Positions 6,087 through 33,796 of a stretch of 35,588 bases of DNA are shown one piece after another (the first letter of the stretch is position 1; each line of letters starts with the position of its first letter). The notes under the pieces are model-generated. The model had not been told where the DNA came from. It searched no databases and worked only from the letters and a program-made list of their open reading frames with translations. The translations under genes were made by a program, and so were the position numbers. Origin of the DNA: a virus; IMG/VR virus record IMGVR_UViG_3300017735_000039, positions 1 to 35,588 of that record. One strand, 5' to 3'.

Positions 6087-6372
6087 TAAAAGGGGAAGGC
6101 CTCGGCCTGACCCCTCAACCCTACGCATAAATCCTTTACTCAAGGAGACCTTTGGACTGATTGATAGTGGTGGGTTTAATGTAACTGACATTGAACTCGC
6201 CGCTGGTCTGGGGTATCGAACCATGAGTAGATGGATGAAACAGAATGGCGCACGACTTGATAGTGTCGAAGCTGTACTGAATGTCATGGGTTACTCGTTG
6301 GAGATTAAACACCATGAATATATTTCACCTGAGCATGTGTCCAAGAAAGTCGGCAAGCTATCTGTGCGATAA
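6076..6372 (+). CDS. Small HTH protein (98 aa), phage repressor-like
   Basis: The N-terminus is basic (NNKRGRPRPDPSTLRIN). Residues about 35-75 look like an XRE/lambda-repressor type helix-turn-helix (FNVTDIELAAGLGYRTMSRW), followed by a helix typical of phage repressors (LDSVEAVLNVMGYSLEI). ATG at 6076 overlaps the previous gene by 11 bases; its ribosome-binding site is weak, which suggests coupling. There is no C-terminal peptidase domain, so it would not be a LexA-type cleavable repressor. Likely a DNA-binding regulator next to the integration module; its target is unknown. Confidence 0.6.
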   Translation: MTNNKRGRPRPDPSTLRINPLLKETFGLIDSGGFNVTDIELAAGLGYRTMSRWMKQNGARLDSVEAVLNVMGYSLEIKHHEYISPEHVSKKVGKLSVR

Positions 6373-6793
6373 GCACGTTAGTAAAATGTTTCTTGAAACT
6401 GGACAAATGTTATCAACCGTCCATCGACAACACGGCGAAAACCACGATGGGCTTTATAAGATTGCTCACCCCCACCACCCTATGACTAAGTGGTGTGGTC
6501 TGACATCAGGTAATTATCGTTGGGCTTATGCACACATGTGTGAGTTAATGAGCCAACACTGGTTGAGATATAACACTACGCACAAGACTATGTATCGTAT
6601 GTGTCATCTAACTGAGCCACCACCCAATATTAGAGAGGGGGGTTTCACTATCCCACCTCTCTGTATGCCTGACCAATACAAGTCGAAGAGCCACGTTGCT
6701 TCTTATCGAATGTATTACTGTAAAGAAAAATCCCACTTCGCTAAGTGGGTTAAAGGACAACCAGTACCATTCTGGTACGATGCCATTTCATAA
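6314..6793 (+). CDS. Conserved phage protein of unknown function (159 aa)
   Basis: The sequence follows a pattern I know from many phages: an MNIF start, then CDKHVSKMFLETGQMLSTVH, HPMTKW, a GNYRWAYAH segment, CMPDQYK and SYRMYYCKEK with FAKW near the end. This known pattern fixes the start at ATG 6314, which also has GGAG ten bases upstream, rather than a longer frame from 6281. Length agrees with the family. It is His-, Trp- and Cys-rich and has no membrane segment. I know no proven biochemical role for the family. It overlaps the HTH gene by 59 bases and is the last plus-strand gene before a convergent block. Confidence 0.75.
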   Translation: MNIFHLSMCPRKSASYLCDKHVSKMFLETGQMLSTVHRQHGENHDGLYKIAHPHHPMTKWCGLTSGNYRWAYAHMCELMSQHWLRYNTTHKTMYRMCHLTEPPPNIREGGFTIPPLCMPDQYKSKSHVASYRMYYCKEKSHFAKWVKGQPVPFWYDAIS

Positions 6794-17483: not shown

Positions 17484-17629
17484 TACTTCTTACCCTTCTT
17501 CTTTAGAATACACGGGCATGGCCTGGTCAACATGTTGCCCTTCTTGCCACCCTGGGCATACTTCGTCGGGCGTTCAGATTGCTTGACGTTGCCTGCTGAC
17601 CTGATACCTAAAACTACTTTGCCGTGCAT
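17483..17629 (-). CDS. Tiny Lys/Gly/Cys-rich protein (48 aa)
   Basis: ATG at 17629 shares bases with the endolysin stop (TAATG), and its own TAA shares a base with the next ATG. The product starts MHGKVVLGIRSAGNVKQSER and ends RPCPCILKKKGKK, strongly basic with a CPC motif. No acidic residue except one Glu. It is another member of the tiny cationic group, expressed with the lysis genes by translational coupling. No family name assigned. Confidence 0.6.
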   Translation of the reverse strand: MHGKVVLGIRSAGNVKQSERPTKYAQGGKKGNMLTRPCPCILKKKGKK

Positions 17630-18087
17630 TAGTCGCCCCATATTTCAAAGTGTGGAGCATCAATAAATGGCCTCTTGCCTTCTGATCTCCTGACATCAAT
17701 ATAGCTTGTCATGGCCCATTCCATCGTCCCGTCAAACTCAGCAATGTCGTGTACGTGCCACGCCGCACCCCATCTAATTTTGACACCGAGTTCTTTTGCC
17801 GCCTTCTTAATAGCGTCAGCTACATCATCATAGACGTTGAGTTCCCATGTATGCCTGCCGCCTACGTAGGCCAACAAGTCCACAGCTTTACCTTCAAGAT
17901 GCTTTGACTTCATGGTTTGTGATGCACCTTTGTCGAACAGTTCCTTCTGTTCTTCTTCAGTTCTCATGCCACAGATGACACCAAAGTCTACGTCGGTTAG
18001 CTCAATAGCTCGGCAGACCACATCAACTAGGCGTTGGTCTACACCCACTAACTTGTCTAAGCTCTTAGCTGATAATGCGTATGTCAT
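17629..18087 (-). CDS. Endolysin, M15-type L-alanyl-D-glutamate peptidase (152 aa)
   Basis: The zinc-site motifs of the VanY/M15 fold are present: SKHLEGKAVDL with His63 and Asp70, and APHFEI with His146; a WHVHD segment lies near 110-114. The N-terminal MRTEEEQKELF segment also matches phage M15 endopeptidases. No signal peptide or cell-wall-binding domain is present, so a holin would release it. It would cleave the L-Ala-D-Glu or similar peptide bond in peptidoglycan. ATG at 18087 has GGAG six bases upstream; GTG at 18099 would put that site inside the gene. It overlaps the holin gene end by four bases (ATGA). Confidence 0.85.
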   Translation of the reverse strand: MTYALSAKSLDKLVGVDQRLVDVVCRAIELTDVDFGVICGMRTEEEQKELFDKGASQTMKSKHLEGKAVDLLAYVGGRHTWELNVYDDVADAIKKAAKELGVKIRWGAAWHVHDIAEFDGTMEWAMTSYIDVRRSEGKRPFIDAPHFEIWGD

Positions 18088-18464
18088 TTCTTTCTCCACT
18101 TATCTAGTCCACGTATGCCGACTGCCGCCGTACATACAATTAAAAGTAAATTTGTGTACCAGTCAGGTAGCTCATTGAGCCTGTCAAATCCCGACTTAAC
18201 TACGTTCTCCATCCCAGGCACGAAGACTAGGACGCATGGGATTAGAACCACAATGGTAACTAATTCGTCTTTCCACGATCCTTGCGTACCCTGCGCCATA
18301 AGTAGTTCCCACTTACTATCGTGGGTAGCCGCAGTCTCCATAACCTTTGCTTTAGCTGTCGCTTCAGCTATGGCTACAGTTGACTTAGCTTTCTGTTTGT
18401 CCACCTTCGACTGAAGGAACGACCCCGCCAGACTGGTCAGTGGCCCTATCAGTGCAGTTATCAT
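18084..18464 (-). CDS. Holin (126 aa)
   Basis: The N-terminus is a hydrophobic/amphipathic helix (MITALIGPLTSLAGSFL). A charged Ala/Lys helix follows (KAKSTVAIAEATAKAKVMET), then WELLMAQGTQGSWKDE and two transmembrane helices near 68-86 and 103-118, with a basic C-terminus (LDKWRKK). This order, including the GSWKDE motif, is what I know from holins of podovirus-like phages. It lies directly upstream of the endolysin with an ATGA overlap. It would form the inner-membrane lesion that lets the M15 enzyme reach the wall. ATG at 18464 has GGAG six bases upstream. Confidence 0.8.
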   Translation of the reverse strand: MITALIGPLTSLAGSFLQSKVDKQKAKSTVAIAEATAKAKVMETAATHDSKWELLMAQGTQGSWKDELVTIVVLIPCVLVFVPGMENVVKSGFDRLNELPDWYTNLLLIVCTAAVGIRGLDKWRKK

Positions 18465-18797: not shown

Positions 18798-18997
18798 GTT
18801 AGTCTGCCCTTACCTAGCTTGTTACACTTGTAGGATACAGGGTGATAACCTGGCATGTACTGATGAACGAACGGCCCCATCTCATGTATGCGAGAAACGC
18901 ATCGTTCTCTAGTTTCGTACGGCCCTCTCTGGTCGTGAAGTTCAATGCAGTTGCTATTGTCTCCCATGACACATATCAGAAGTATTGCCTTAAACAT
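18794..18997 (-). CDS. Small secreted-like protein (67 aa)
   Basis: The N-terminus MFKAILLICVMGDNSNC has a short hydrophobic stretch and a Cys, but a very short basic region, so a signal peptide is possible but weak. The remainder has three Cys and several His/Tyr. ATG at 18997 overlaps the giant gene stop (TAATG) with GGAGG seven bases upstream, so it is coupled to the giant gene. No family recognised; the place suggests a lysis or envelope function. Confidence 0.55.
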   Translation of the reverse strand: MFKAILLICVMGDNSNCIELHDQRGPYETRERCVSRIHEMGPFVHQYMPGYHPVSYKCNKLGKGRLT

Positions 18998-21900
18998 TAG
19001 AAACCCTCCGTTCCAAATCCACCGCCGCTGAACCCACTGCCCCCTGCAAAGCCCAGCTTAGATGCAGACTTCTTGTTGCCACTGCCAGCTTCTCCAGCGA
19101 TGCTGTCAACAACATCCTCTTTGAAACCACGTATGCCACCAGCAATCGGGATACGGCCTATGACTGATCGTACTGCTTCTCTTCGGCGTGCCGCCTTGTC
19201 GTCAAAGGCACCCATTGGGCCTGCTACAAATACGTCGTAAGCATCTTCTGCTGTACCTACGGCTGGGCCAAAGATGGCACCCGCTGTTCTGACAAAGCCG
19301 AACTTACCGTTGTCTGCCTGCTCTGCTGTATTGTAGAGAAGCTCACCGAATAGACCCAGACCACCAATAGCCATCATACCTTCTAGGTAGTTACCCATTA
19401 TCTGATCGTTGTCACTGCCTTCTTCGAGACCGAACATGCTCTCAGCCATTGTACCTAGTGGGCTATTGGTCAGCTTACGTTTACGTAGCTCACGACTTTC
19501 GTTGTCTTCACCACCACGAGACTGGACAATATCTTTAATGCCCGCAGAAGCGTAACCCATGCCAACACCAGCAGTCGCCAAGTACATCGCAGGGTAAGGA
19601 TTACCCTGAATTGCCTCGTTGTATACATGCTTTGACATACGAGCCATCATCAACTGGAAGCTCTTCAACTGGAAGAACATAGAACCCCACGGGGTTTGCG
19701 CCCACGTAGGTATGTCATTCGGATTAGGTGTGAAGATAGCCTCGTTAGTGAAACGCATTAGTGCATAACGCAACTGCTTGTTAGACATAAGGTCAGTGTC
19801 ACGTATATCATTTAACACTGGTGCATCGAAGGAAAGGAAGTCTGTACTGGCGTTCTCTCCAGTCATACCGTAACGCTTCAAGAAACGCTCAGATGCCTTG
19901 AACGACTTACTACCTTGCTTGCCTGCTGACGCTAGTCTTCGGGCTTTAGCTATCTCAGACTTAAACGCCTCGAACCCTACAAGACCAGCAATCTCACGTT
20001 GCATGTTTGTCCAAGGTGTAAGAAGAGTAAAGTTAAAGAAGCTGTTCTGTACCTTTTGAGAGCCTTCCCCTGCCATCTGCACCATTCTATCGTGCATCAA
20101 GTTCTCTACACCAACGCCGATATTCTTTGCGGCGGCGCGATAAGATGGGTCAACACTATACCATTGCTTCTGAGCCTTTAAGAACGCACCCATGTTTCCT
20201 GAACGGACGAGCGGTAACGCTACGTCGCCAAGTGAGGTGAGAGTTGTAAAGGCCAACAACGAGATTGAGTTAAAGGCTTTCACGTTTCGTGAAACTAAGT
20301 AAGGCACTTTAGCATCTGAGAACTTAACAAGAGGACGCTTGTTCATAATGTCCGTCATGTTCTCTGCGAGCTTCTTAGCACTCTCAGGCATATTGCCATC
20401 AGGGTAATCCTTCATGGCATTGACTATGCTATCAACCCTTACACGAAGATTAGGGTCAGCTTGGTCAGGAGCCTCGAACTTAGACAAGATAAGGTTACGT
20501 GCGCCTTCCACGCTCTTGTCTTCTTGGATCATAAACTTTGCTTCTTCAAGCATCTGCTTAATGTTAGCATGGTTGTCTTTAAGTGCTGGCACAACCAACT
20601 GTTCGATAGGTGCTTCTTCCTGATACTGTCTGTACTTGTAGACAACCTTCTTGTTTGACATCAGAGTTTTGACAGCACCATCCACGCCTTGAGTGGCAGT
20701 GGTTATGTATGATGAGAAGCCATGACCCGCCGCACCAAACTGTTTTGTTAGTGCAACCTTCCTTGTAGTTCTGTCAAAGTAAGAAGCAATCAAACCATCT
20801 AAGTCGTTTACCAGAAACTCTTCCATGAAGTCGTACTGGCCTGGCTCTAGGTTGATAACCCTGTTGTAGAACGGATCGCCAACAGCCCGACGTAGAACGT
20901 CGTCACCATATGTCTCGCCGTCAGTATCCAACAACGTGTTGATAAACTCTTCAGATTTTCTGTTAGCCGCAGACGGGTCTAACGGAACATCCTCGAAGTC
21001 CATCTTCCTGCTTTCATCAAAGAAGTATTGAGCAAATGCGGCCTTCGCCTTCTTCGGATTGGAACGCATAAGTTCTATATCCCACTGCTGTGGTACATAG
21101 AAGTCTCCACTACTACGACGGCTATCACCAACTGGAAGGCCAGCTTCAAGCATACGCTCTCGCTCACTTTCAAAAGCTGAGATGATCTGTCTAGCCACGC
21201 CTTGCTCTTGATTATTTAGTTCACGTACAGCCATCTCACCTCTACGTATAGCACCAAGTATTCTTTGGTGAGACTGAGGTGAACTCTCTAGGTCTGCTTT
21301 GCCAGTGAACTTGTTAGGTAAGAAAGACATTGAACGTCTTGCCCAACGCTTTGCCCAGCCACTATTGTCGGGCAGGCTTTTTAGTGCGTTATAAATTGGC
21401 AGAACTTTATCGCTCAAGTCTACGTCGTGCCTCTCGTAAAGGCCTGTACCATTTTCAGGTTTGATAAAGTCACCCATCCAACTAGCACCCATCTCACGTA
21501 GACGTTGGCTGTTCTCACGGAAGTAACTGAAGACTGATGAGTTCTTGCGAACTGTGTCAATGTCTTCTGCGCTTGGGGCTTCCTTGCGTATCATCCTACG
21601 TAATGGCTTTACTAGGTCTGGCACGCCAGCCTCTTGCATCTTACGTGCAACGCCAACCATGTCATCGACACCAATGGTTCTCTGTTTCATAGCCATGCTG
21701 GACAAGACTTCACCACCTACTCCAACTGTGCCTGGCTGACCAAGTACGCTGTAGTACATGCCGCGTCTGTCGCTGTCGAATACGTCGGCGTTTACGTGCT
21801 TCATGTGGTTAGGATTGAACGTCACTACTTCACGTAGCTTCTCACCAAAGCCAACGTCGGCAATAATGCCTTCGTATCCTTCGGACTTTAGGAACTGAGA

Positions 21901-24900
21901 TAGTTTCTTACGACCCATTAAATCTTCTTCGTGCGTTCTGGTTTGAACAGAACGAGCGTTAGGGTCAGTCATCTCAGACGATAAGCGAGAATAAAACACA
22001 TCACCTGACATGCCGTCGCCTTGCTGAATTAACTCTGCTAAAGCACGATGGCTATCTCCTGAGATGTACCCACCGTTTTGCGCGGAAGCTAACATGTGAG
22101 AGATATCGCTTTTGTCTCCAGTACCATATTGGAACATTGTGTCACTGGTGAAACGGTAGTGCTTCTTTGTTCTTACGAACATTGGGATAACGCCACCCAT
22201 AGACTTGTTACCTGTAAGTCTTGCGAAGGCTTCCTTAGTCGCTTCAAGACGTGCAGTGTAGTCTGCTATACGTGATGCACCTAGCTCGTCGTCTCCAGCC
22301 TTCCAGCTTTCTTCTTCTAGGAACCTTTGCTCTTCATCCATTTTTGATATGAGTGCTTCGGCATCCGCTTTCTTGTCACCTTCTAACTTCTCTACGACGT
22401 TTCTATAAGCGTCCATTCTAGTGCCATCGGCATAGCCTTCGGCGTACTGAGGATTGTTAGTGGTGTAAGTGCCTTCACCGTACATGCCATCTTCTGATGG
22501 ACGTATATAAGCATCAGGGTTTCTGGCTCTATTGAACTCATCAATGACAGGAGTGCCGTGATACATAACGTGATCAGCAATGTTCTCATCAGGGTCAAGT
22601 CCAAGGAACTCTCTTAGTAGTAGCTCCTTCTCTCTACCCAAACTCTTAACAATATCTTTACCGTAAGCTGGTGCTAGTGATGCACTAACTGTTGGGTACT
22701 GATAAGTGTTCACAGCATTTTTGATTGGTGTTGATGTACGCTTCTTAGCAAACATGTCGCCATGATATGTCATCTGACGATACATCTGCTTCATTGACTT
22801 ACGACCTATCATACCGTTTAGTACATAAGCAGTGAACTCATAAAGCCTGTCAGCAAGTTGACTTAAATATCCTTTAACAGTTAAGTCAGCCATACCGCCA
22901 TCGCCATAACGGACATTAAAGATATCTCCTTTAGCCACTCGTTCTGCCATCCACTGACCCCAGCTTTCGACAAACCATTCTTCTGCTACGTCGCTGTCTT
23001 TGTATCCGTCCACCTTTCCGTACAACTCCTTTATCTTTAGAGCGGCAGGGTCGTTCTTGTCCATTGCTTCCTTGAAGCCTTGTAACATGTGGTCTCTGTC
23101 GATATCTTCAAATGTCGAACGACTAATCATGTGTCCGATTTCGTGCATCATATCTACAGGGTCAGCATTACCTTCGTTAATACCAATAGCAAAGGTACGC
23201 ATCTGTTTGCGAAGAGAGTTAAATGGCGCACCATTTAGTCGGGCAGTCTCAGCGAAAGCCGCTTTAGTCCCAGATGGAGCTACCTCTCCAGATAACTTAT
23301 AAAGGTCTTGGACACTCATAAACGTAGTGTTGTTCTCAACCAAGTCGGTAGCTGTGCGCCCCATTAGGTTAAGCATACGATAAAGCATTGTTCGAGAAGT
23401 GTACTCAACCTTCTTGTTACGGTGAGTAATCTTACCAAGAACCTCTTTGATAGTGGCAGGCGCATCACCTGGCACACCGTTCATGGCATCTACTGTGCTA
23501 CGTTGTTTGGTCTCGATGTCCAGCGCACGACCAACTATACTAGACTTTACCTTAATAGGGTTCTCAGTCTTGTTAGCTAAGTAGCTGATAGCTGTCTGTG
23601 CTTTGTCCCACTCGCCAGTCACCATTGCTTCGTCGTAGACTTTGCGTGCATCTGGGACAGACTTGATAGACCTTAGTGCCTCAAGCTCTGCATCGTTAAG
23701 CTCGTTGAAAGGCTTAGTGTAAGGGCCAGCCTGCATACGAGTGTAGACTTCTTGCTTCATCTCTATTACTTCTGGTGTGTTAGAACCAACCGCTCTGATT
23801 TTTTCCAGAAGCTCATTAGTGCTTATCGTCTTTGGAGAAGCATTAACTACTGGGTCTACAACATCCACTTCAGCAGAACCAAACACTTCGTCTTGTGCTT
23901 TCATTATGCTTTCTAGCAATGTCTTAGCCAGACGCTCGTTCTTTTTACTGACAGCCTTTGCGTATCTCTTGGCCTTCATGTTGCCTGCCTTGTATACGCG
24001 ACCAGTCTTATCAATGTTCGGAGCAACGGAGCCTGTCTTGTTGAAGTTACGGTTGAACATATTAACGAACTCGTCGAGGCCACCGTCCAGAGCTACGATC
24101 ATATCGTTTGCCTGCTGTACTAAGTATGCTTCAAGAACTTCGTCTGCTCCCTTACGTCCCATCATCTGCTGAATGATGTCAGCATCACGTTCAAACATAC
24201 TCTCCAGTGAACCACTAGTTGTGCCAAAGTCTGCTGGTGTCATAAACGCCATAGCCTCATCTGGCACTGACAAGATGTCACCACCTTCTTGAGTTTCTAT
24301 TAGTCGTTGCAGTTCAGCAGAGCGAGCCGCTTCAGTCATATCTGACTTGTCAAAGTTATCCAATGCCCCGACTAGACGTTCGTCTTGAAGGGTTCTCATT
24401 GTCTTGAATGACTGTGACAACATACGACCACGAGCGATACGTGCGTCCATGTACGCAAAAGGCTTAACAGTCTTCCCGTTAGGAAGACGTATCTCTGGCT
24501 TGTTAGCATAAGCTGGTCGGCCTTTGCTATCATAACTATCTAATGCAGTTACACGTTTGCCACCTTCAATGATATTACCACTGGCATCCTTACGGTTTCT
24601 GTGTGTCTTCTCACCTGGCTTACCACCATACATACCGTATATACGCCGTGATGTTCTCTCCAGAATATCAGCAAGTATTGATGCGTCATGTCCAGCCGCG
24701 CCGCCCATACGTAGTGCTTCTTCAAGCTCTACTTGCATAGCACGCAAGTCGTTAAGCTGTTGTGCCGCCAGTCTTACTGGAGCGTCGGAACCATTACTAT
24801 TCACTTTGGCTAGTAGGTGTTCAAACTGATTATGGATTGGACGACCAGCGGATACAGAACCATCTGCAATCTTAGGGTCAGGCATAATACGGTCAAACAA

Positions 24901-27900
24901 CTCAACCATCTGTGGATCAAGCTGATCATCAAGGCCAAGTATACGACGAACAAGAGCTTCCGCTTTTCTTCCCACATCCATGAAGAGCCTGCTCAACAAG
25001 CTACCAGTAGAACCCTTACGAGTATTGGCTACGTAGATGGCAAACTGGTTAGCAAAGAACTCAGATGGGCTTCGTATCTCAGCGTCGGTAGAGATGCCTG
25101 GAAGTCTTTTCTTTAGGGCGGCAATGTCTGCGCCGTCAGAGCCGACGTAGCCACGAGCTATTGTCCAGAACTCCATGCGTTCAGCAGGGGTCATCATATT
25201 CTGGTAAGCCCAGTGTCCCATCTCATGTGCAAAGTTCAGAGCATCTGGTTGCTGTGATGAAGTACCAATTACAATCTGGTTGTTCTGGTCTTCAGCAAAT
25301 CTTCCTGGCTGGTGGTATCCATAGGTCTTGTCGCCTTTGTCAAACACAGGCATAGCGTCTGAGCCTTGGCGGTTTGGAGAACCAGATATCATGTTGAAGA
25401 TGCTAAGTATCTCGCCTTTCTCTGCGGCGTTCATACCAGCTATCTGCTGAGACAAATTCTTATAAGACTTCTGCCTAGTCTGGTTTGGTAGCTTAACACC
25501 GTTCGGAGCAAACTTTGCCAAAGCATCATACATGGTCTGCAAAGACTTAACTTGGAAGTCATAGTCTTCAATGCTCTTGAAGCTAGACCATTCAATGTCT
25601 TCAACGTCAGCTATGTATCTAGCCAACTTACCAACTGTGTCCATGTTACCAGTGCGGATTGGCTCTGGCATTAAAGACATAAGTGCTTCTGTGGCGTTGT
25701 CTTGGTTAAGAGGCATGTTGTCTAGTTCATTGATATGGACTGGACGATTAGCCCTAGCTCTTGGTGAGGTAGGAAGGTTTGCTGTTGCGTCAGGTATTAC
25801 TGGCTCTGTTCTACCAGCTTGTGCGCCAGTCAACCTGTTGCCACCAAAGGACTGGAACTCGTCATCTGGGTTCAAAGGTCGGAAAGACTTACGAGCATGT
25901 ACTGTACCAGAGCGTGTGTTGTCACCCCTTGGGTTCATCATGTCTACGTCGCCCATAACGTACTGGTCTGGACGCAGGCCTGCTGTGATTTCAGAAGAAC
26001 TGTTCTGTACTTTGCCACCCTTTAGAGGGTTTACATTTAGTACCCTTGTTCCCTTTGCTGTACCGTAATCTTTGTGCTTCGGGTCTGTCACTTGTAGCGC
26101 AAGTGTCTTGCCTTGAGACATCTGGTCTTGTGTGATTACGTCTGCAACTGGGCGACCTTCAGTGGCGTTAGCCATTGGGTCTTCGGAAGCTGTTGTAGCT
26201 GGAACATCTTCAACGGCATCGTACCTTTGTGTGTGATGATAATCAGGTATAGTGACAGGGCTTGGTGCTTCAGCAATCTCTTGTGCCACACCTTTCCCAT
26301 CTAACATTTGGTCAAGCTCTTTCTTCGCAGACTTAGCCACCAACTGCATAGCTTCGTTACGAGTAGATGCTTTTACCGATACAACGCTTTCGCCATTACG
26401 ACGAATGACTTGGTATGAACCATCTTCAAACTTCTTGATGGTTCCCAGATTGCGACCATCCACAAAGAAGTTGTGAGTGTTGTCACTTACTGTCTGGTAC
26501 TGAACGTCCTTACTCATGTTGTAAGCACGCTTGCCAATCTGAACTATGTTAGGATTAGGCTCGCCCTTTGGTCGTGTATCTGGCTTAGTAGCTTGTATCT
26601 TCTGCTCTGCATCAGCTTGAATTTCCATGACTGACTGACGCACTTCTTGAGGTGCCATGTCGCCTTTGTTCTCATGTAAGTATTCAATCTTAGATGCTTG
26701 CTCTTGGTACGCAATGTTAGCAAGGTCTTCTTGGTTTGCGTAATACTCAGCACGGATTTGATCTTCGTCGGTGAACGTGTGGTTGAATACATCTTCCATC
26801 TCCTGAAGCATTTCACTTTCAGGAACCTGTTCGTTTGACGCTATGTCTTGCTTGTTACGATAATCAGCACGAGCCGCTCTCTTAATACTAGCCAGTGTTT
26901 TGACAGCCGCCTTCGCATCGTCGCTCTTAATAAGTTGACGCTCACGAGGAGACATGCCCTCAAGCATTTCATTCAACTTCTTATTAAGTCGGGCTATCTC
27001 TTTCTTTAGTCCGAGTGATTTCTGAGCATCCTGTTTAGCTTCAGCTTTACGTAGTTCTTTGATAGCACCAGACTTACGTGCCTGAACATCAAAGTACCTA
27101 CGGATAGGTTTAGCTCTGTCAGTCTCAACTCTATTGGCAACTACTGTACCCTTATCACTGGTGACAAGTGGCTTATAATCTTCACGTAGCTTGAGCAAAA
27201 CATCTTCGTAATTATCAGTAGATGTGAGTTCACTTAGATTGCGAGAAACACGCATGGCTTCGTTCATACGTTCCTGTGCCGCGTCGAGCTTCTCGTTTGC
27301 CTTTGGTATCTTCTTCTGGAAATCATCGTCTGACCCAGCTTCAATCTTGGCGATATTGTCTTGCGCCCTTTGAACTGCGTTACGAGCCTTGTTCATTTCT
27401 GACATAGCCGCTTCGTAATCGCGTGGGTCTTTACGACTTTGACCACTGTCTTTAGCTTCTTCAGCCGCATCAATACTACGCTGTCTTACAACAGGGTCTT
27501 GTGCGCCAGCCATAGACTTATTGCGTTCAATCATCGCCTCTTCATTAAGACGACGTGAGCTTTCAGCTTGGTCGTAGATGTATAGCTTGCCATCACGAAC
27601 AGTCGATATCTTGGTAAACGTGCCACCGTGATATTCGTTGCCGCTCGCAGGGTCTAGGCTTTGAAGCATCTTTTGGATTGAGCCTATCTGACGAGAACCT
27701 AGTTCTTTGCCAGAGCCAGCCTTGCCAGTACCCATCGTTACGTTCTGAAGGTTACGCTGTATGCGACCAATATGATCACCGTGTCCATCAAGGATTTGGT
27801 CTTCATTCAAATCCATTGGGCGTGTTGTACGTGTGGCTGACTGCTTGGCATCAAAGAATTTACCGTTAGCATCCATAGACTTGTAAGCCTGTGCTTGGAT

Positions 27901-30594
27901 GAACCGCTCAAGAATTGCATCTTGAGTAGCTGTGACCAACTTAATCGCACTGGCTCTATCGAGCTTACCATTACGAACCATGTGCTTGATGGTAGCTTCT
28001 TTCATAGCTGTCCATTCAAGACGTAGGTCTGCTGGCATTAACTCTACTTGCTGTTGAACGAAGTCTGATATGTCCTGTACTTCACCGTTGTCAGGAGAGT
28101 TTAATATCTTACCTTCCTTCAGTGCTGAGAAGTGATTAACGATGTCTTGATAGAAGCCACCTTCTCCAAACCTACGACGAGCTATATCAAGCATCTCATC
28201 AATGGTTGCAAAGCCCATCATCTCTGTGTCTAAGTTCACAGCATAACGAGTGGCCTGACGTGAACGCCATGAACGGAATGCCTGTTCAGCGTGAGGTTGT
28301 AAGTTAGCTGGCACGCTCGCTTCGATGAGAGCGGATGCTACGTCGTCATCATACATGCTATCAGGCACACCGCCTTTACCGCTCAGATTGAGCAGTCTTT
28401 GCCAGGCACGCTGACCACGAACCATGTTTACAGTTTCTTTTACTGCTGTACGTCGTGATTGAATTGCCTCTCTGCTATTACCAGATGGCATTGATTTAAT
28501 TATTGTTTCGCTTTCGTCGGTACGCAAGCCTAAGTCTTTGAACTCTTTCCTGATATTCCTAACGGTAGGAGAGAACTCATTGTCGAGGTATTCGTTAAGA
28601 ACTACTTCGTTGTCAACTTCAGCTACAGGGGCTACGTCGTCAGCTTCAGGAGTTATAGAAGAACCATCAGTAGATGGTTCTTCTACTGGGGGAGCTTGTT
28701 CAGGATTTGTGTTGTTGATTTGGTCAACAGCATCCTTCTGCTGTGAGCCAAACTGTTCTTCAAGAGTACGCTGTTCTTCCTTGAGAGCCACGGCTTCTTT
28801 GTCGATAGCCTCACGTCTGTTCTTTAGTGTCAGGTACTCAGGGTTGTCTGTTCCGTCTTCTAGCTTTTCAGGTAGGTTAGCCATCTCACGATCAAGACGC
28901 TTACCTTCGTAGGCGATGCTACCTTTACGGCGACCATCAAGACGGTTTGTTATATCACCAATACGTTGCTCTAATGGCACAGCTTCATCAGCCGCCGCCG
29001 CTTCAGCAATATCGACTACTTGCTCTACTGTGTCTGATGCCGCTTCTTCTAGGTTCGGTGCCTGTGGTGTTCTTGCAGTATCAGGGTTCTGAACCGCATC
29101 AGGAGCATTAAGAGATGTAAGTTCAGGCTGTTCAGGTAATGAGCTTTGAACAGTAAAGCCTTCACCTTCTAATCCCTCTACTGGTAACTGCTCTGGAGCT
29201 TGATCAAAGTAATCATCAATACGGTCAGCCGATAGACTGCCGCCACTTTCTATTTCGCTTCTGGCTTTGAGTACGAACGCATTGTAATCAGACTGTTGAC
29301 GCTCATAGTACGCAGACAGCTTATCCAGTACAGGGCTTTTGGTTTCCCCAGTTTCAGCCATACGAGCTTGCTCTGCGGAAATCTTAGCTTCTGTCTGCTT
29401 CTTTACAATAGGCCAAGAGCTTATGTTCTTGATACGTGTTATCTTTTCTTCGAGAGGCTGTAGAGCAATACGCTCTAGTCTGGTAGCCTCGTCTACTTCA
29501 CCGTTCCTACGTAGCTCTTCGATCTCTTGTTGGTAAGTAGCTCTCTCTTCCTCGGCACCTTTAAGTGATTGCTCAAGAGTGGTTGATGTGTCCATCTCTA
29601 TGTCAGCCATATCACCACGAGGAGCTACTGTTGGAGAAGCTATTCCACCAGTTGTGTCTACTCGACCAGCCGCATTAGCGGCACGGTCAGCCATACCACG
29701 AGTGATAGAGCTTCTGTCTAAATTCTTGCCTGTACGTTTGCTTACTTCAGCAAGACCTTCGTCGCTTAATTGTGTAATTCCTTTTCCTGCCGCCGCAGAA
29801 CTGGTGTCATCAAAGGCTCTACCTACAATCGGTATCTTCTGAGCCATGCCTTTTATAGCACCCGTTGGAGCAATAGCACCACCGAGACCCATACCAGCAC
29901 CCATTAAGCCACCTGTAAATGCGCCTGTACCAGCCGCAAGGCCAGCACGCATATAGCTTACGTCGTCTTGTAGACCGACTGCTACGTTACGGTTCTGGAT
30001 ACCGATGTCGGCTACGCCTTCTGCAATACCAGAAGCGACTGCTTCGCCTTTAGCACCAGATGTTATACCAGCAGTGATACCTTTTCCGATTAACTGACTT
30101 TTGGTTAAGCCTTTCGCGGCTGTACCAACAGCCAGACGAGCGGCCTGTCCACCAGCACCGAAACCAATCAAGTTGATTGGATCGGCAAGCATAGCCATAC
30201 CACCTTCAAGGATGGCAGAACCAGCACCGTCTACGCCAAATGGTAGAGCGTCATATACTTGTTGGATACGCGCTAGTCGTTTGGTCTGACTGTCGCTTGA
30301 TGTGTTAGCATCATATACGTCTCGACCAATGGAAACTGTGTTTAAGTTACGCCATCTACGGTCATTAAGGTAATAGTCAATTACGTCTTCTTGACCATTG
30401 AAAGACTTTCCGTCTCTCTCACCGTAGTAATCGTATAGGTCTTGAAGAAATCTATTGTCGCTGAGGAGTGTCTTAGCAGTATCCTCGTTTAAGTTAGAGG
30501 CGTAGTCTGCCTGACCGTACTGTCCTGAGTTAATGTCAGAGCCAGTCGCGTTGTTAAGGGAATCAAACCCTTTACCTTTATGCGTAAATGCCAC
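18997..30594 (-). CDS. Giant polyvalent virion protein (3865 aa): two zincin motifs, ADP-ribosyltransferase-like segment
   Basis: Residues about 115-250 are Gly/Ala-rich hydrophobic stretches typical of ejection proteins. Long charged coiled-coil and low-complexity parts follow (about 330-1400). A first metalloprotease motif HEMGH is at 1790-1794 with a likely third ligand Glu1845 (SPSEFFAN). A second, HEIGH, is at 2484-2488 with Glu2538/2539 (AEEWFVESW). An ADP-ribosyltransferase-like segment begins at YHGT (His2679), with GEGTYTT (Tyr2710). The last 700 residues resemble the C-terminus of other phage giant proteins (a RFTNEAIFTPNPNDIPTWAQ region near 3610). GTG at 30594 has GGAG seven bases upstream. 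It follows two shorter ejection-type proteins, so it is probably packaged and injected, acting in the envelope or against host defences. Enzyme activities are predicted, not shown. Confidence 0.85.
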   Translation of the reverse strand: MAFTHKGKGFDSLNNATGSDINSGQYGQADYASNLNEDTAKTLLSDNRFLQDLYDYYGERDGKSFNGQEDVIDYYLNDRRWRNLNTVSIGRDVYDANTSSDSQTKRLARIQQVYDALPFGVDGAGSAILEGGMAMLADPINLIGFGAGGQAARLAVGTAAKGLTKSQLIGKGITAGITSGAKGEAVASGIAEGVADIGIQNRNVAVGLQDDVSYMRAGLAAGTGAFTGGLMGAGMGLGGAIAPTGAIKGMAQKIPIVGRAFDDTSSAAAGKGITQLSDEGLAEVSKRTGKNLDRSSITRGMADRAANAAGRVDTTGGIASPTVAPRGDMADIEMDTSTTLEQSLKGAEEERATYQQEIEELRRNGEVDEATRLERIALQPLEEKITRIKNISSWPIVKKQTEAKISAEQARMAETGETKSPVLDKLSAYYERQQSDYNAFVLKARSEIESGGSLSADRIDDYFDQAPEQLPVEGLEGEGFTVQSSLPEQPELTSLNAPDAVQNPDTARTPQAPNLEEAASDTVEQVVDIAEAAAADEAVPLEQRIGDITNRLDGRRKGSIAYEGKRLDREMANLPEKLEDGTDNPEYLTLKNRREAIDKEAVALKEEQRTLEEQFGSQQKDAVDQINNTNPEQAPPVEEPSTDGSSITPEADDVAPVAEVDNEVVLNEYLDNEFSPTVRNIRKEFKDLGLRTDESETIIKSMPSGNSREAIQSRRTAVKETVNMVRGQRAWQRLLNLSGKGGVPDSMYDDDVASALIEASVPANLQPHAEQAFRSWRSRQATRYAVNLDTEMMGFATIDEMLDIARRRFGEGGFYQDIVNHFSALKEGKILNSPDNGEVQDISDFVQQQVELMPADLRLEWTAMKEATIKHMVRNGKLDRASAIKLVTATQDAILERFIQAQAYKSMDANGKFFDAKQSATRTTRPMDLNEDQILDGHGDHIGRIQRNLQNVTMGTGKAGSGKELGSRQIGSIQKMLQSLDPASGNEYHGGTFTKISTVRDGKLYIYDQAESSRRLNEEAMIERNKSMAGAQDPVVRQRSIDAAEEAKDSGQSRKDPRDYEAAMSEMNKARNAVQRAQDNIAKIEAGSDDDFQKKIPKANEKLDAAQERMNEAMRVSRNLSELTSTDNYEDVLLKLREDYKPLVTSDKGTVVANRVETDRAKPIRRYFDVQARKSGAIKELRKAEAKQDAQKSLGLKKEIARLNKKLNEMLEGMSPRERQLIKSDDAKAAVKTLASIKRAARADYRNKQDIASNEQVPESEMLQEMEDVFNHTFTDEDQIRAEYYANQEDLANIAYQEQASKIEYLHENKGDMAPQEVRQSVMEIQADAEQKIQATKPDTRPKGEPNPNIVQIGKRAYNMSKDVQYQTVSDNTHNFFVDGRNLGTIKKFEDGSYQVIRRNGESVVSVKASTRNEAMQLVAKSAKKELDQMLDGKGVAQEIAEAPSPVTIPDYHHTQRYDAVEDVPATTASEDPMANATEGRPVADVITQDQMSQGKTLALQVTDPKHKDYGTAKGTRVLNVNPLKGGKVQNSSSEITAGLRPDQYVMGDVDMMNPRGDNTRSGTVHARKSFRPLNPDDEFQSFGGNRLTGAQAGRTEPVIPDATANLPTSPRARANRPVHINELDNMPLNQDNATEALMSLMPEPIRTGNMDTVGKLARYIADVEDIEWSSFKSIEDYDFQVKSLQTMYDALAKFAPNGVKLPNQTRQKSYKNLSQQIAGMNAAEKGEILSIFNMISGSPNRQGSDAMPVFDKGDKTYGYHQPGRFAEDQNNQIVIGTSSQQPDALNFAHEMGHWAYQNMMTPAERMEFWTIARGYVGSDGADIAALKKRLPGISTDAEIRSPSEFFANQFAIYVANTRKGSTGSLLSRLFMDVGRKAEALVRRILGLDDQLDPQMVELFDRIMPDPKIADGSVSAGRPIHNQFEHLLAKVNSNGSDAPVRLAAQQLNDLRAMQVELEEALRMGGAAGHDASILADILERTSRRIYGMYGGKPGEKTHRNRKDASGNIIEGGKRVTALDSYDSKGRPAYANKPEIRLPNGKTVKPFAYMDARIARGRMLSQSFKTMRTLQDERLVGALDNFDKSDMTEAARSAELQRLIETQEGGDILSVPDEAMAFMTPADFGTTSGSLESMFERDADIIQQMMGRKGADEVLEAYLVQQANDMIVALDGGLDEFVNMFNRNFNKTGSVAPNIDKTGRVYKAGNMKAKRYAKAVSKKNERLAKTLLESIMKAQDEVFGSAEVDVVDPVVNASPKTISTNELLEKIRAVGSNTPEVIEMKQEVYTRMQAGPYTKPFNELNDAELEALRSIKSVPDARKVYDEAMVTGEWDKAQTAISYLANKTENPIKVKSSIVGRALDIETKQRSTVDAMNGVPGDAPATIKEVLGKITHRNKKVEYTSRTMLYRMLNLMGRTATDLVENNTTFMSVQDLYKLSGEVAPSGTKAAFAETARLNGAPFNSLRKQMRTFAIGINEGNADPVDMMHEIGHMISRSTFEDIDRDHMLQGFKEAMDKNDPAALKIKELYGKVDGYKDSDVAEEWFVESWGQWMAERVAKGDIFNVRYGDGGMADLTVKGYLSQLADRLYEFTAYVLNGMIGRKSMKQMYRQMTYHGDMFAKKRTSTPIKNAVNTYQYPTVSASLAPAYGKDIVKSLGREKELLLREFLGLDPDENIADHVMYHGTPVIDEFNRARNPDAYIRPSEDGMYGEGTYTTNNPQYAEGYADGTRMDAYRNVVEKLEGDKKADAEALISKMDEEQRFLEEESWKAGDDELGASRIADYTARLEATKEAFARLTGNKSMGGVIPMFVRTKKHYRFTSDTMFQYGTGDKSDISHMLASAQNGGYISGDSHRALAELIQQGDGMSGDVFYSRLSSEMTDPNARSVQTRTHEEDLMGRKKLSQFLKSEGYEGIIADVGFGEKLREVVTFNPNHMKHVNADVFDSDRRGMYYSVLGQPGTVGVGGEVLSSMAMKQRTIGVDDMVGVARKMQEAGVPDLVKPLRRMIRKEAPSAEDIDTVRKNSSVFSYFRENSQRLREMGASWMGDFIKPENGTGLYERHDVDLSDKVLPIYNALKSLPDNSGWAKRWARRSMSFLPNKFTGKADLESSPQSHQRILGAIRRGEMAVRELNNQEQGVARQIISAFESERERMLEAGLPVGDSRRSSGDFYVPQQWDIELMRSNPKKAKAAFAQYFFDESRKMDFEDVPLDPSAANRKSEEFINTLLDTDGETYGDDVLRRAVGDPFYNRVINLEPGQYDFMEEFLVNDLDGLIASYFDRTTRKVALTKQFGAAGHGFSSYITTATQGVDGAVKTLMSNKKVVYKYRQYQEEAPIEQLVVPALKDNHANIKQMLEEAKFMIQEDKSVEGARNLILSKFEAPDQADPNLRVRVDSIVNAMKDYPDGNMPESAKKLAENMTDIMNKRPLVKFSDAKVPYLVSRNVKAFNSISLLAFTTLTSLGDVALPLVRSGNMGAFLKAQKQWYSVDPSYRAAAKNIGVGVENLMHDRMVQMAGEGSQKVQNSFFNFTLLTPWTNMQREIAGLVGFEAFKSEIAKARRLASAGKQGSKSFKASERFLKRYGMTGENASTDFLSFDAPVLNDIRDTDLMSNKQLRYALMRFTNEAIFTPNPNDIPTWAQTPWGSMFFQLKSFQLMMARMSKHVYNEAIQGNPYPAMYLATAGVGMGYASAGIKDIVQSRGGEDNESRELRKRKLTNSPLGTMAESMFGLEEGSDNDQIMGNYLEGMMAIGGLGLFGELLYNTAEQADNGKFGFVRTAGAIFGPAVGTAEDAYDVFVAGPMGAFDDKAARRREAVRSVIGRIPIAGGIRGFKEDVVDSIAGEAGSGNKKSASKLGFAGGSGFSGGGFGTEGF
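28656..28685. repeat. Perfect 13-bp hairpin inside the giant gene
   Basis: TAGAAGAACCATC (28656-28668), a 4-nt loop AGTA, and GATGGTTCTTCTA (28673-28685). On the coding strand it encodes EEPSTDGSS in the low-complexity region. Such an uninterrupted stem in a coding region is unusual; it may pause ribosomes or simply reflect the Ser/Glu-rich codons. Confidence 0.7.
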
Positions 30595-30668
30595 AGTGAT
30601 ACTCCAGTTTTCTCTGCGTTAATATGTAAATACAGATTAACGTGAGATAACCAGAGCAGTCGTCCCTA
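30595..30668 (-). promoter_or_regulatory. Short gap between the 737-aa and giant genes with inverted repeat
   Basis: Contains CGTTAAT (30617-30623) and ATTAACG (30636-30642), a perfect 7-bp inverted repeat with a 12-nt loop, and ACGTGAGATAAC (30640-30651), which also occurs at 3741-3752. The ribosome-binding site GGAG for the GTG at 30594 lies at its end. It may hold an extra promoter or an mRNA structure for the giant gene. Confidence 0.4.
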
Positions 30669-32882
30669 TCAGTTATCGAAGTCGCTTGGGTTTAACCCAC
30701 CAAGAGAGACACCATTTAGGTTGAACAAGTTAAACAAGCCCCTGTCGGTCATTGGTCTACCACGTAACTGAACACCTTGTTTTCTGTAAGCCTCTGCCAT
30801 TTGTTTAATAATACTTGCTTGCCATTCTCTTACGCTATCGAATGAACCACCTTGCACTATACCGTATGCAGGGTTAGGTCTGATGCCCGCTACTGCTTGG
30901 TTTCTGCCGTTGGCTATCGTTAGGTTAGCAATGTCTGCTCCCATATCTAATAAGTCTTGGCTTGCGCGTTGCCCTGCTAGACCCAGATTTACAGTAGGTG
31001 CTGGCAAGACAGCACTGTTACTGTCTGCTGGTATTATGTCGCCATCAACTACGGAATATAAATTACCAGGAACTAGAGCGTTGCCAGTGTTATCCTTCAA
31101 AGTTCCAGAGCCAGCTAATGCTTGGTAATTGCCATTGCCCATTATCTTTAGTGCGCCGTCAGGAACAATTTGAGGCTTGAAAGAAGATATCTCTAATTCG
31201 TTAAGTTGCTTGTTAATCTCTGCTTCATACTTCTTCATCATTGCGTCGATGTTGCCATTCGGGCCTTCAGCAAAAGCACCTCTTGCGTTCACCATAAGGC
31301 GCACATCTTCTCGCATTTGTTCCATAGCCGCATCTTTAATTTTCTGCAACTGTTCTGATATCTCTTCTTCACTGGCACCAATCTGTAACTTGAAGTTTGA
31401 AGACTTGATGGCACTTTCTATTTTAGCCTTGAAGTCAAGAACCTCTTCCTGAACCACTATTTCTATGTCAGAGCCAGGTTTAATCTTCATGGAAGACATG
31501 TTCACTTCTTTAATTGCCTCAACATACTCTGCGTTACTTACTAAAAGTCCTTGTGATACAAGAAAGTTCGTCATCTCTTGTGCGGCTTTTGGGGTGAAAG
31601 CACCATTGATTACGTCTTTACCGTACTCTTCTTCCAGTCTTTTCATAATTTGAGTTGGATCAAAGGCTGGAACGTGGGTGGCTACCAATGAAGAGAACAC
31701 ACCAAAGCCCAGCTTGTCTTTTTCAAAGAAGCCAGTCTTTGCCATACTATTCATTTTAGCTTGAGCCGCTACCAATGCAGTCTGACCTTTAGTATCGGCG
31801 GCTTTGAGTGCGTTTTGATAGTCCGCTTCATATTGAATACCCTCACGGCTTGCCGCCGCGCTGATAAACTTCTTGAACGTCGGGTCTTCTATGCTCGTTG
31901 CTTCACTAAGACCATTGTTCCTACGCATAAGATTATAAGCGTCCAATACCTTTTTGTCATCGTACCCAAGCGCATCAAACGCCACAACAAATTCACTACC
32001 AGCGGCAAGAGCGTCTTTACCGAACTGCTCTTCCCTTGCAAGGGTGTCTGCTGTTACAGCGTTACTCTGTCTCATTTTAAGTCTTGCTACAATACTAGCG
32101 TGAAGTTCTTTATACTCTTGTGATGTTCTGTCTAAATTAACTTTTGCCTGCGTTATTATGGATGTTGCTTCATTTTCTAAGTTCTCATCTTTTAAGTGAA
32201 GCATGTCAGTACCCTTGTAGTTATTAACAAGGGTCTCAGCAGAAGCAGTAGCAGTAGTTAAATCGCTAGACTGCCTGTTGTTTATTATTTCTTTTATGCT
32301 GTTCTTCTTCCATTCTGGAAGGTTATCAGCGTTCATTATTTTTTCCGCGTCAGCTACAGTTCTTATGTCTTTAAGACGTAGGTCTACGTAGTTGTCTGCC
32401 GCTTCAGCCCTAGAAGACAGAATGGTTTCACCATAACGACTTGAGTTCTGTGTCCACAGTCTCTCACCAAGTTCTTCTTGGCCTACGAAGTTCTTCATAA
32501 AATTAAGTTTTGCACCAGCAGGGTTGCTAGGGTCGCCGTCTAAATTTTGACCGACGAAGGTATCAAATATCTGTAGCTCTTTATCCTTACGGGTTACTTC
32601 GTTGGCTTGCTCTGCCCTACGAGTTTCTAATGCACGCTCGTTGGTACGCTTGGCTAAGTCGCCAAGCATCTGACCTGGCCCCATGTCGCGCAGAAAGAAA
32701 GCATCATTGCCTGCTAGGCTCTGTCTATAAGACTGCAAGTCTTCAGCCGTTACGTCCTCACCTAACTCAGCCTTGGCCTTTCGGTAGTTCATAAAGGCGG
32801 TTCTGTTGTCCTTGCGCTTTTTATCAATGCGATCTTCTTGCTTATTATAAGCATCGAAGTAAGCGGATGAGAAACGAGCCAT
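30669..32882 (-). CDS. Putative internal virion (ejection) protein, 737 aa
   Basis: The protein is long, soluble and helical: charged helices in the first 350 residues (KRTNERALETRRAEQANEVT) and a Gln/Glu-rich helical part near 480-570. The C-terminal 170 residues are Gly/Pro/Asn-rich and include a DGDIIPADSN segment and a basic QLRGRPMTDRG motif near the end. There is no signal peptide or enzyme motif. Its position between a 303-aa Gln/Ala-rich protein and a giant protein matches the gp14-gp15-gp16 order of T7-like ejection proteins; that analogy is from gene order, not sequence. Start ATG 32882, two bases after the upstream stop. Confidence 0.65.
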   Translation of the reverse strand: MARFSSAYFDAYNKQEDRIDKKRKDNRTAFMNYRKAKAELGEDVTAEDLQSYRQSLAGNDAFFLRDMGPGQMLGDLAKRTNERALETRRAEQANEVTRKDKELQIFDTFVGQNLDGDPSNPAGAKLNFMKNFVGQEELGERLWTQNSSRYGETILSSRAEAADNYVDLRLKDIRTVADAEKIMNADNLPEWKKNSIKEIINNRQSSDLTTATASAETLVNNYKGTDMLHLKDENLENEATSIITQAKVNLDRTSQEYKELHASIVARLKMRQSNAVTADTLAREEQFGKDALAAGSEFVVAFDALGYDDKKVLDAYNLMRRNNGLSEATSIEDPTFKKFISAAASREGIQYEADYQNALKAADTKGQTALVAAQAKMNSMAKTGFFEKDKLGFGVFSSLVATHVPAFDPTQIMKRLEEEYGKDVINGAFTPKAAQEMTNFLVSQGLLVSNAEYVEAIKEVNMSSMKIKPGSDIEIVVQEEVLDFKAKIESAIKSSNFKLQIGASEEEISEQLQKIKDAAMEQMREDVRLMVNARGAFAEGPNGNIDAMMKKYEAEINKQLNELEISSFKPQIVPDGALKIMGNGNYQALAGSGTLKDNTGNALVPGNLYSVVDGDIIPADSNSAVLPAPTVNLGLAGQRASQDLLDMGADIANLTIANGRNQAVAGIRPNPAYGIVQGGSFDSVREWQASIIKQMAEAYRKQGVQLRGRPMTDRGLFNLFNLNGVSLGGLNPSDFDN

Positions 32883-32884
32883 TG

Positions 32885-33796
32885 TTAAATCCCAGCGTTC
32901 TTTAAGCGTTTGGTTAGGTCAGCGTTTTGTTGCTTTAGTTCAGCCAGTTCTTTAGAAGAAGCGTTCGTAAAGTTGTCATCTTTACCAAGCATGAAGCCCA
33001 AGTTGTTGCCATACTTTGTACTAAGGTTCGCGCCCATTGTGCCACGAGCCTTTGCGCTGTCCGTTGCCATATTGCCCCTTGCAGTTGCCATATCTTCACT
33101 CGCACCACGAGCGTATTCATAGCCCGCGTTAGCACTGTCTGGCATGACACCTTTGAGATTATCAATAGCGGACTGATAGCCAAGTCCCACATCTTTAGTA
33201 GCCATTTCTCTGCCAGCGAATAGAGTGTCTTGATTTGCTTGTGTACGATTGATAGCCGCATTGTAAGCCTCCTGATCTATTTTACGCATCTGGTCTGCGT
33301 ATGATGTTGATAGTTCACGTTGGCTGTCTTTGAAACGGTCTGATCTATCCATGCCTTTTGCAATGGCATCTGCGTATCCCTGAGAGCTTACCCTGTCTAT
33401 CGTGTTGTTTAAGTCGCCCATCATTTGCTCTCTTATCTGAGCATAGTTGGCGTTGATGTCACCTTGGCTTGCGCCTTTGAAATCACCCATAGCATCACGA
33501 GCTTGATTGATAGCCTGTTCAAGCATCTGTGAACGGTTCACAATACCTTGACGTATGCCAGCTTCTTCTGCGGCACGTTGCCTAGCCAAACCCAACTGCT
33601 CTTGTGCAATTTGTTGTTGTTGAGCTAGTGCTTGAGCCGCTAATGCTTCGTCTTCGTTTGACTGCTTGTAAGCGTTCATGTAGTCGAATGTAGAACCAGC
33701 CGCTTGCGCGAGCATACCTTTACGAGTGGGATTACCATCCTCGTCGGTTCCCATATATCCGTTATACATTTTGCCTAGAAATTCACCGATAGCCAT
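32885..33796 (-). CDS. Putative internal virion protein, Gln/Ala-rich (303 aa)
   Basis: The N-terminus (MAIGEFLGKMYNGYMGTDED) is followed by a Gln/Ala-rich helix (EALAAQALAQQQQIAQEQLG). Long helical stretches continue to the C-terminal coiled coil (KELAELKQQNADLTKRLKNA). Small size, Ala/Gln composition and its place as the first of three consecutive genes fit the T7 gp14-type ejection protein; this is an analogy from gene order. ATG at 33796 has AGGGG upstream and follows the previous stop by ten bases. Confidence 0.65.
   Translation of the reverse strand: MAIGEFLGKMYNGYMGTDEDGNPTRKGMLAQAAGSTFDYMNAYKQSNEDEALAAQALAQQQQIAQEQLGLARQRAAEEAGIRQGIVNRSQMLEQAINQARDAMGDFKGASQGDINANYAQIREQMMGDLNNTIDRVSSQGYADAIAKGMDRSDRFKDSQRELSTSYADQMRKIDQEAYNAAINRTQANQDTLFAGREMATKDVGLGYQSAIDNLKGVMPDSANAGYEYARGASEDMATARGNMATDSAKARGTMGANLSTKYGNNLGFMLGKDDNFTNASSKELAELKQQNADLTKRLKNAGI

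Follow-up and report, generated by a model that had tools for sequence, protein, structure and literature searches.

T7 gp16, or internal virion protein D, is a peptidoglycan transglycosylase of 1318 aa that exits the virion before the DNA does, and ejected multidomain proteins are already known. The polyvalent proteins of Iyer et al. 2017 contain many enzymatic domains, including a zincin-like peptidase and an ADP-ribosyltransferase (ART), and they are predicted to be packaged and injected; cutting by the zincin and early modification of the host by the ART have already been proposed for such proteins generally, and the virion RNA polymerase (vRNAP) of N4, which also bears a zincin, is packaged unprocessed (PMC5512222). 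ARTs were found in just 3% of siphoviruses and podoviruses in a 2022 survey (PMC9503650). The cultured phage CRP-810 has been described together with its group, in which cobS and cobT are nearly universal with an uncertain role; its gp36 is annotated as "internal virion protein D", its gp35 and gp34 as "hypothetical", and the word "polyvalent" does not occur in the main text of the paper (PMC11288001).

The window analysed here is a virus record of 35,588 bases, and it contains a giant reading frame of 3865 codons with zero internal stops. We propose, with a probability of about three in four, that its product is the terminal ejection protein of a phage, probably a short-tailed one of the CRP-810 type, in which a carrier of the T7 gp16 class is loaded with enzyme cargo. 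An ejected virion protein is the best reading because of the position of the gene, the homologies of the two flanks and the ejectosome precedent. The features of the giant are as follows.

18997-30594, minus strand: predicted giant ejection-type polyvalent protein (GTG start, 3865 aa, 427 kDa).
30602-30605, minus strand: GGAG, a Shine-Dalgarno-like motif read from the sequence, 7 nt before the GTG of the giant.
29875-30525, minus strand: N-domain, residues 24-240, overlapping the Gly/Ala-rich residues 111-260.
24865-25527, minus strand: zincin 1, residues 1690-1910 (HExxH plus Glu; predicted fold matching lethal factor and PPEP-1).
25213-25227, minus strand: HEMGH, residues 1790-1794, of zincin 1 (third ligand E1845 at 25060-25062).
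22795-23442, minus strand: zincin 2, residues 2385-2600 (HEIGH, residues 2484-2488, at 23131-23145; EEWF from residue 2538).
21715-22632, minus strand: ADP-ribosyltransferase domain, residues 2655-2960 (H2679, Y2710, E2908).
19000-21597, minus strand: C-terminal core, residues 3000-3865, T7 gp16-like by PHROG profile and predicted fold.

As the sequence-only reading had described it, this single 11.6-kb frame is open from the GTG throughout, and it takes up 32.6% of the window, close to the one third estimated. The same reading had mentioned hydrophobic Gly-rich segments and long coiled coils. Residues 111-260 are indeed 41% Gly plus Ala; "hydrophobic" fits poorly, since a single 19-residue Kyte-Doolittle peak exceeds 1.3 in the whole protein, at residue 3444. 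Long coiled coils are unproven because heptad periodicity (p<0.01) was detected in just 3 of 63 segments, one of them within residues 351-1350, a variable region with 32% charged residues (DEKR). The two metalloprotease motifs are present, HEMGH at 1790 and HEIGH at 2484, where the composition of the protein predicts 0.03 HExxH motifs.

Scans of the whole giant against Pfam and PHROGs gave zero matches, and trimming into segments was needed; among the trimmed segments, none apart from the ART scored above a Pfam cutoff, and PF18857 (the LPD38 polyvalent domain) had no match in the window, its control likewise matching nowhere. Sequences of solved structures, searched with profiles of the whole giant, its C part, the ART and the zincins, returned chance or coiled-coil matches only; 4x52, a zinc finger antiviral protein aligned at E 0.12 to the ART motif, came nearest to being of interest. 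A Foldseek search of the PDB with two large multi-domain models gave nothing below E 0.1. The PDB fold matches of the giant come from the VIA comparison and range from Z 5.8 to 9.5, where, according to the warning of that comparison, a Z below 8, or below about 13 in helical regions such as the C-terminal core, may mean a common arrangement only.

The gene content places the phage in the marine CRP-810-type group. Of 24 window ORFs compared by tblastn, 12 match CRP-810, the closest named phage; 11 of these are collinear and one (6281-6793) is displaced. The window is a fragment in which no capsid, portal or terminase gene was recognised; a CobT-like VWA protein (PF11775, E 2.5e-25) lies at its edge, at 1-1584. 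CRP-810 gp36-gp35-gp34 (OR671924, PMC11288001) has the domains of the giant in the same order, its C part being 34.8% identical to that of the window over 97% of the query, and homology runs unbroken across both gene boundaries; it differs in having three annotated ORFs, which divide the sequence into an N part, the zincins with the ART, and a C part. CRP-810 is the sole cultured phage found with this layout.

Relatives were collected with the C-terminal part. Viral-contig searches gave 16 loci, the best 80 of 243 and the best 80 of 356; a genome-contig search gave three loci and CRP-810 was added, for a total of at least 155 loci with domain hits. After 45 loci whose C-terminal end was identical to that of another had been dropped, 110 distinct related loci were left among the matches listed; 12 loci from comparison phages and the second CRP-810 part were outside the domain scan. 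A complete C-bearing ORF is present in 47 of the 110. When the same domain order was sought in these virus collections, 44 of the 47 proved to be single giants of 2917-4126 aa with the order N-domain, zincin 1, (zincin 2), ART, C-terminal core, 41 of them with both zincins and three without a recognised zincin 2. The other 63 rows end at contig ends and agree in domain order as far as it is visible. The giant is thus conserved across the phage group, and for that reason an artefact in the form of a recombined gene is ruled out. A related idea is that the single ORF is itself the artefact and that the true products are separate genes, as in CRP-810 gp36, gp35 and gp34. The three remaining complete C-bearing ORFs, those of CRP-810, L113 and L168, do come from split or stopped frames, and a continuous frame is also absent in L042 and L148 (duplicates, outside the count). 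The preponderance of single giants makes separate products extremely improbable, however, and one boundary in CRP-810 points the same way: an exact 31-bp tandem duplication (L001, 24067-24128) lies at the gp35/gp34 boundary and is absent from the close relative L104, which is 91% identical in the C part.

A three-gene ejection-type cluster (303, 737 and 3865 aa) had been suggested from the sequence, and it is present and recurrent in relatives. The genes next to the giant are the following.

30669-32882, minus strand: 737-aa protein upstream of the giant, in the position of T7 gene 15.
32885-33796, minus strand: 303-aa protein that opens the three-gene cluster, in the position of T7 gene 14.
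17629-18099, minus strand: peptidase M15 protein (PF13539, E 2.5e-6), probably for lysis, encoded downstream of the giant.

In L005, L009 and L011, the gene immediately preceding the giant encodes a relative of the 737-aa protein, with 27-33% identity over the last 200-320 residues of the latter (E 1e-19 to 1e-34). The ORF upstream of the giant has 697-874 aa in 21 of the 22 loci with a complete one, the exception being L166 with 274. The 737-aa protein is recognisable in the nearest relatives only, though an ORF of similar size sits there group-wide, and by these comparisons its divergence is fast. A relative of the 303-aa protein (E 1.6e-13) is found at 485-1246 of L077, at the start of the cluster in that locus. 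Both neighbours were unmatched by library families and gave no profile link to T7 gp15, T7 gp14 or the pelagiphage neighbours, nor did the 737-aa protein to the neighbours in TL-2011b, the Vibrio phage and phiA008.

The two flanks of the giant are related to known virion proteins. The N-domain has homologues at the N-terminus of pelagiphage proteins annotated "internal virion protein D" (tblastn E values reaching 1e-21; hhalign 99.9%, E 1e-37) and matches CRP-207 gp39 more weakly (hhalign 97.4%). No Pfam transglycosylase was detected in residues 1-320, where a T7-like N-terminal lytic domain was looked for, and the first 300 residues of the HTVC019P internal virion protein D, the homologue of the N-domain, have none either.

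The C-terminal region had been likened to other giant phage proteins, and by profile and fold it can be placed in the T7 gp16 class. Over 130 residues the core matches phrog_342 at E 1.3e-8, a family called "internal virion protein with endolysin domain", and it also matches phrog_684 (E 3.2e-8). In a model predicted by AlphaFold for residues 2640-3839, with a mean pLDDT of 75.4, it aligns with T7 gp16 (7eyb_I, identity confirmed) at Z 8.7 over 253 residues with an rmsd of 5.5, which is moderate for a helical region; the PhiM1 ejectosome (8vb2_A) follows with Z 7.9 and the E1004 core with Z 6.9, all three core proteins being within the first 16 rows of the fold comparison. Direct comparison of T7 gp16 with the C profile in hhalign was not significant (16%, E 0.0016). 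The C-terminal part finds further matches in the ejection clusters of three phages, TL-2011b, Vibrio phage 1.138.O and Aeromonas phage phiA008 (hhalign 98.5-99.2%); the first two of these distant relatives match phrog_342 over nearly their full length (E 5e-210 and 8e-125), and the phiA008 protein matches other virion-protein families. We consider that the C-terminal core resembles T7 gp16 by PHROG profile and, moderately, by predicted fold. A Foldseek search of BFVD gave 49 matches with an E of 0.001 or less; these include internal virion proteins and proteins named "large polyvalent protein associated domain-containing", and because relatives bear this name, the kind of protein is already known.

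Between the flanks, the first of the proposed metalloproteases held up in the fold comparison, which for zincin 1 is led by lethal factor (Z 7.2); PPEP-1 has Z 5.8, in a list where unrelated helical proteins reach Z 6.9. In the model of residues 1640-2640 (mean pLDDT 79.6), secondary structure and alignments give strands, then the HExxH helix, and a helix that contains E1845. Zincin 1 is thus predicted to have a lethal-factor/PPEP-like fold, in agreement with the lethal-factor relation and the motif residues given for this peptidase class by Iyer et al. (PMC5512222). For zincin 2 the model gave no fold match, and its HExxH helix is not preceded by strands; by profile comparison (hhalign 93.5%, E 2.2e-7, motifs in register) this segment is a homologue of zincin 1.

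The fate of the two motifs was followed in 68 rows, the window included, that were scored for both zincins; four others, gapped at the zincin 1 motif, had been removed. Of the 68 rows, 31 have two intact motifs, 30 only that of zincin 1, seven only that of zincin 2, and none lacks both. In three more rows zincin 1 is intact and zincin 2 is unrecognised, so that every one of the 71 rows retains an intact HExxH in one zincin or both. In zincin 1 the third-ligand Glu shares the fate of the HExxH, kept or lost, in all 71, and both are kept in 64. A quick tree built from 86 C-domains shows one change of zincin 1, six of zincin 2 and four of the ART His. An intact motif in every row hints at a shared self-processing function. 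The loss pattern is only suggestive, because the seven losses of zincin 1 belong to one clade, and the rule that both are never lost has no statistical support with one zincin 1 event and six zincin 2 changes; an independent-pairs test found one usable pair and had no power.

These counts bear on what the zincins do. They may be effectors that attack host proteins after entry, like the ART, and not processors of the giant, which is a possible if doubtful reading. Host targets are one of the options listed for such peptidases in Iyer et al. 2017 (PMC5512222), the repeated loss of zincin 2 is what is expected of a dispensable effector, and the evidence for action in cis is weak, with few independent events and with zincin 1 kept about as often (64/71) as the ART His (81/92). 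The retention of one of two homologues in 71/71 rows, on the other hand, fits a shared function in cis better. In that case the giant could be a self-cutting delivery vehicle, with duplicated zincins that are redundant, either of them freeing the cargo from the N-domain and core after passage through the portal, and with the ART as the released effector. We regard this proposal as rather unlikely; if it were true, CRP-810, split into N part, zincins with ART, and C part, would be a natural case in which the covalent link is unnecessary.

The ART-like segment named in the sequence-only reading has the signature YHGTP (2678) and GEGTY (2706), and the call stood: the trimmed region matches PF18760 (ART-PolyVal) with E 7.3e-10 and 40.2 bits, compared with a cutoff of 31.2, a match that was missed when the whole giant or the whole record was scanned. 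ART-PolyVal is matched by 40 of 64 members at E <= 0.01. The best fold match is 9k3a_B residues 1418-1601 (Z 9.5, 175 residues), followed by tankyrase catalytic domains with Z about 6. In ungapped rows the His is absent in 11 of 92 and the Tyr is kept in 90 of 93, and the column of E2908, which would be the third catalytic residue (His-Tyr-Asp type), is Asp or Glu in 96 of 98. In L031-L043 the His is replaced, mostly by Asn, and this clade also lacks the zincin 2 motif. That some members have neither the zincin 2 motif nor the ART His, and that the C-terminal core and N-domain are related to structural proteins, would suit a giant with a purely structural or scaffolding role in the capsid core, its zincin and ART folds being relics or assembly aids. 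The high retention of the zincin 1 motif with its Glu, of the ART Tyr and of the acidic residue argues against this, and we judge it quite improbable.

We return to an ejection protein with enzyme cargo as the preferred reading. A gp16-like core combined with internal protease-like segments and an ART implies that the protein probably delivers enzymes into the bacterium at infection. About 2,700 residues of other sequence, including the two zincin-type segments and the ART, separate the N-domain from the gp16-like core. The giant would be present in particles, assembled in the capsid on its C-terminal core, and would be ejected with the first DNA, the core helping to form the DNA conduit. A zincin may then cut the giant in cis and free the middle part, and the ART may modify a host protein early in infection, like T4 Alt. 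T4 Alt is an injected ART.

Possible novelty of this exact layout had been suggested in the sequence-only reading. The layout extends beyond the window to its phage group, and no published description of it was found in the literature searched, with subscription papers mostly outside. On the ejection reading, a core of gp16 type should be able to bear enzyme cargo thousands of residues long in marine phages of a widespread group, and the cultured member CRP-810 makes this group directly accessible to experiment.

Among the known systems, ORF27 of the cyanophage A-4L of Anabaena (9k3a chain B, from a pre-ejectosome) has an ART-like domain at residues 1418-1601 with YHGT and GSGTY, which Pfam does not call an ART and which the ART profile of the giant group reaches at no more than 39% (E 3e-4). 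It differs from the giant in its length of 1717 aa, in having no HExxH and in the place of its ART, near the C-terminus and not internal, and no profile match was found between ORF27 and the N and C parts of the giant. In the A-4L locus (L169, 20116-25269) this solved ejectosome protein is annotated merely as a tail protein. Aeromonas phage phiA008 gene 66 (2050 aa) has a related C-terminal core and a HELGH zincin motif; it carries a staphylococcal nuclease domain and, by profile comparison, no ART. Nuclease and zincin (L102, 4976-11128) look like another cargo on the same gp16-like carrier. The vRNAPs of N4 and Roseovarius Plymouth podovirus 1 are also very large proteins with a zincin, the latter with an ART as well (PMC5512222); unlike N4-type vRNAPs, the giant has no match among phage RNA polymerase families. 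The polyvalent proteins share its enzymes, and flanks formed by an internal-virion-protein-D N-domain and a gp16-like core are not described in the available part of that paper (PMC5512222). T7 gp16 has the C-terminal core in common with the giant and is likewise the last product of a three-gene cluster; it differs in having no insert comparable to that of the giant, whose N-domain in turn is without the transglycosylase. The giant links structural work on T7-type ejectosomes with the computational class of polyvalent proteins.
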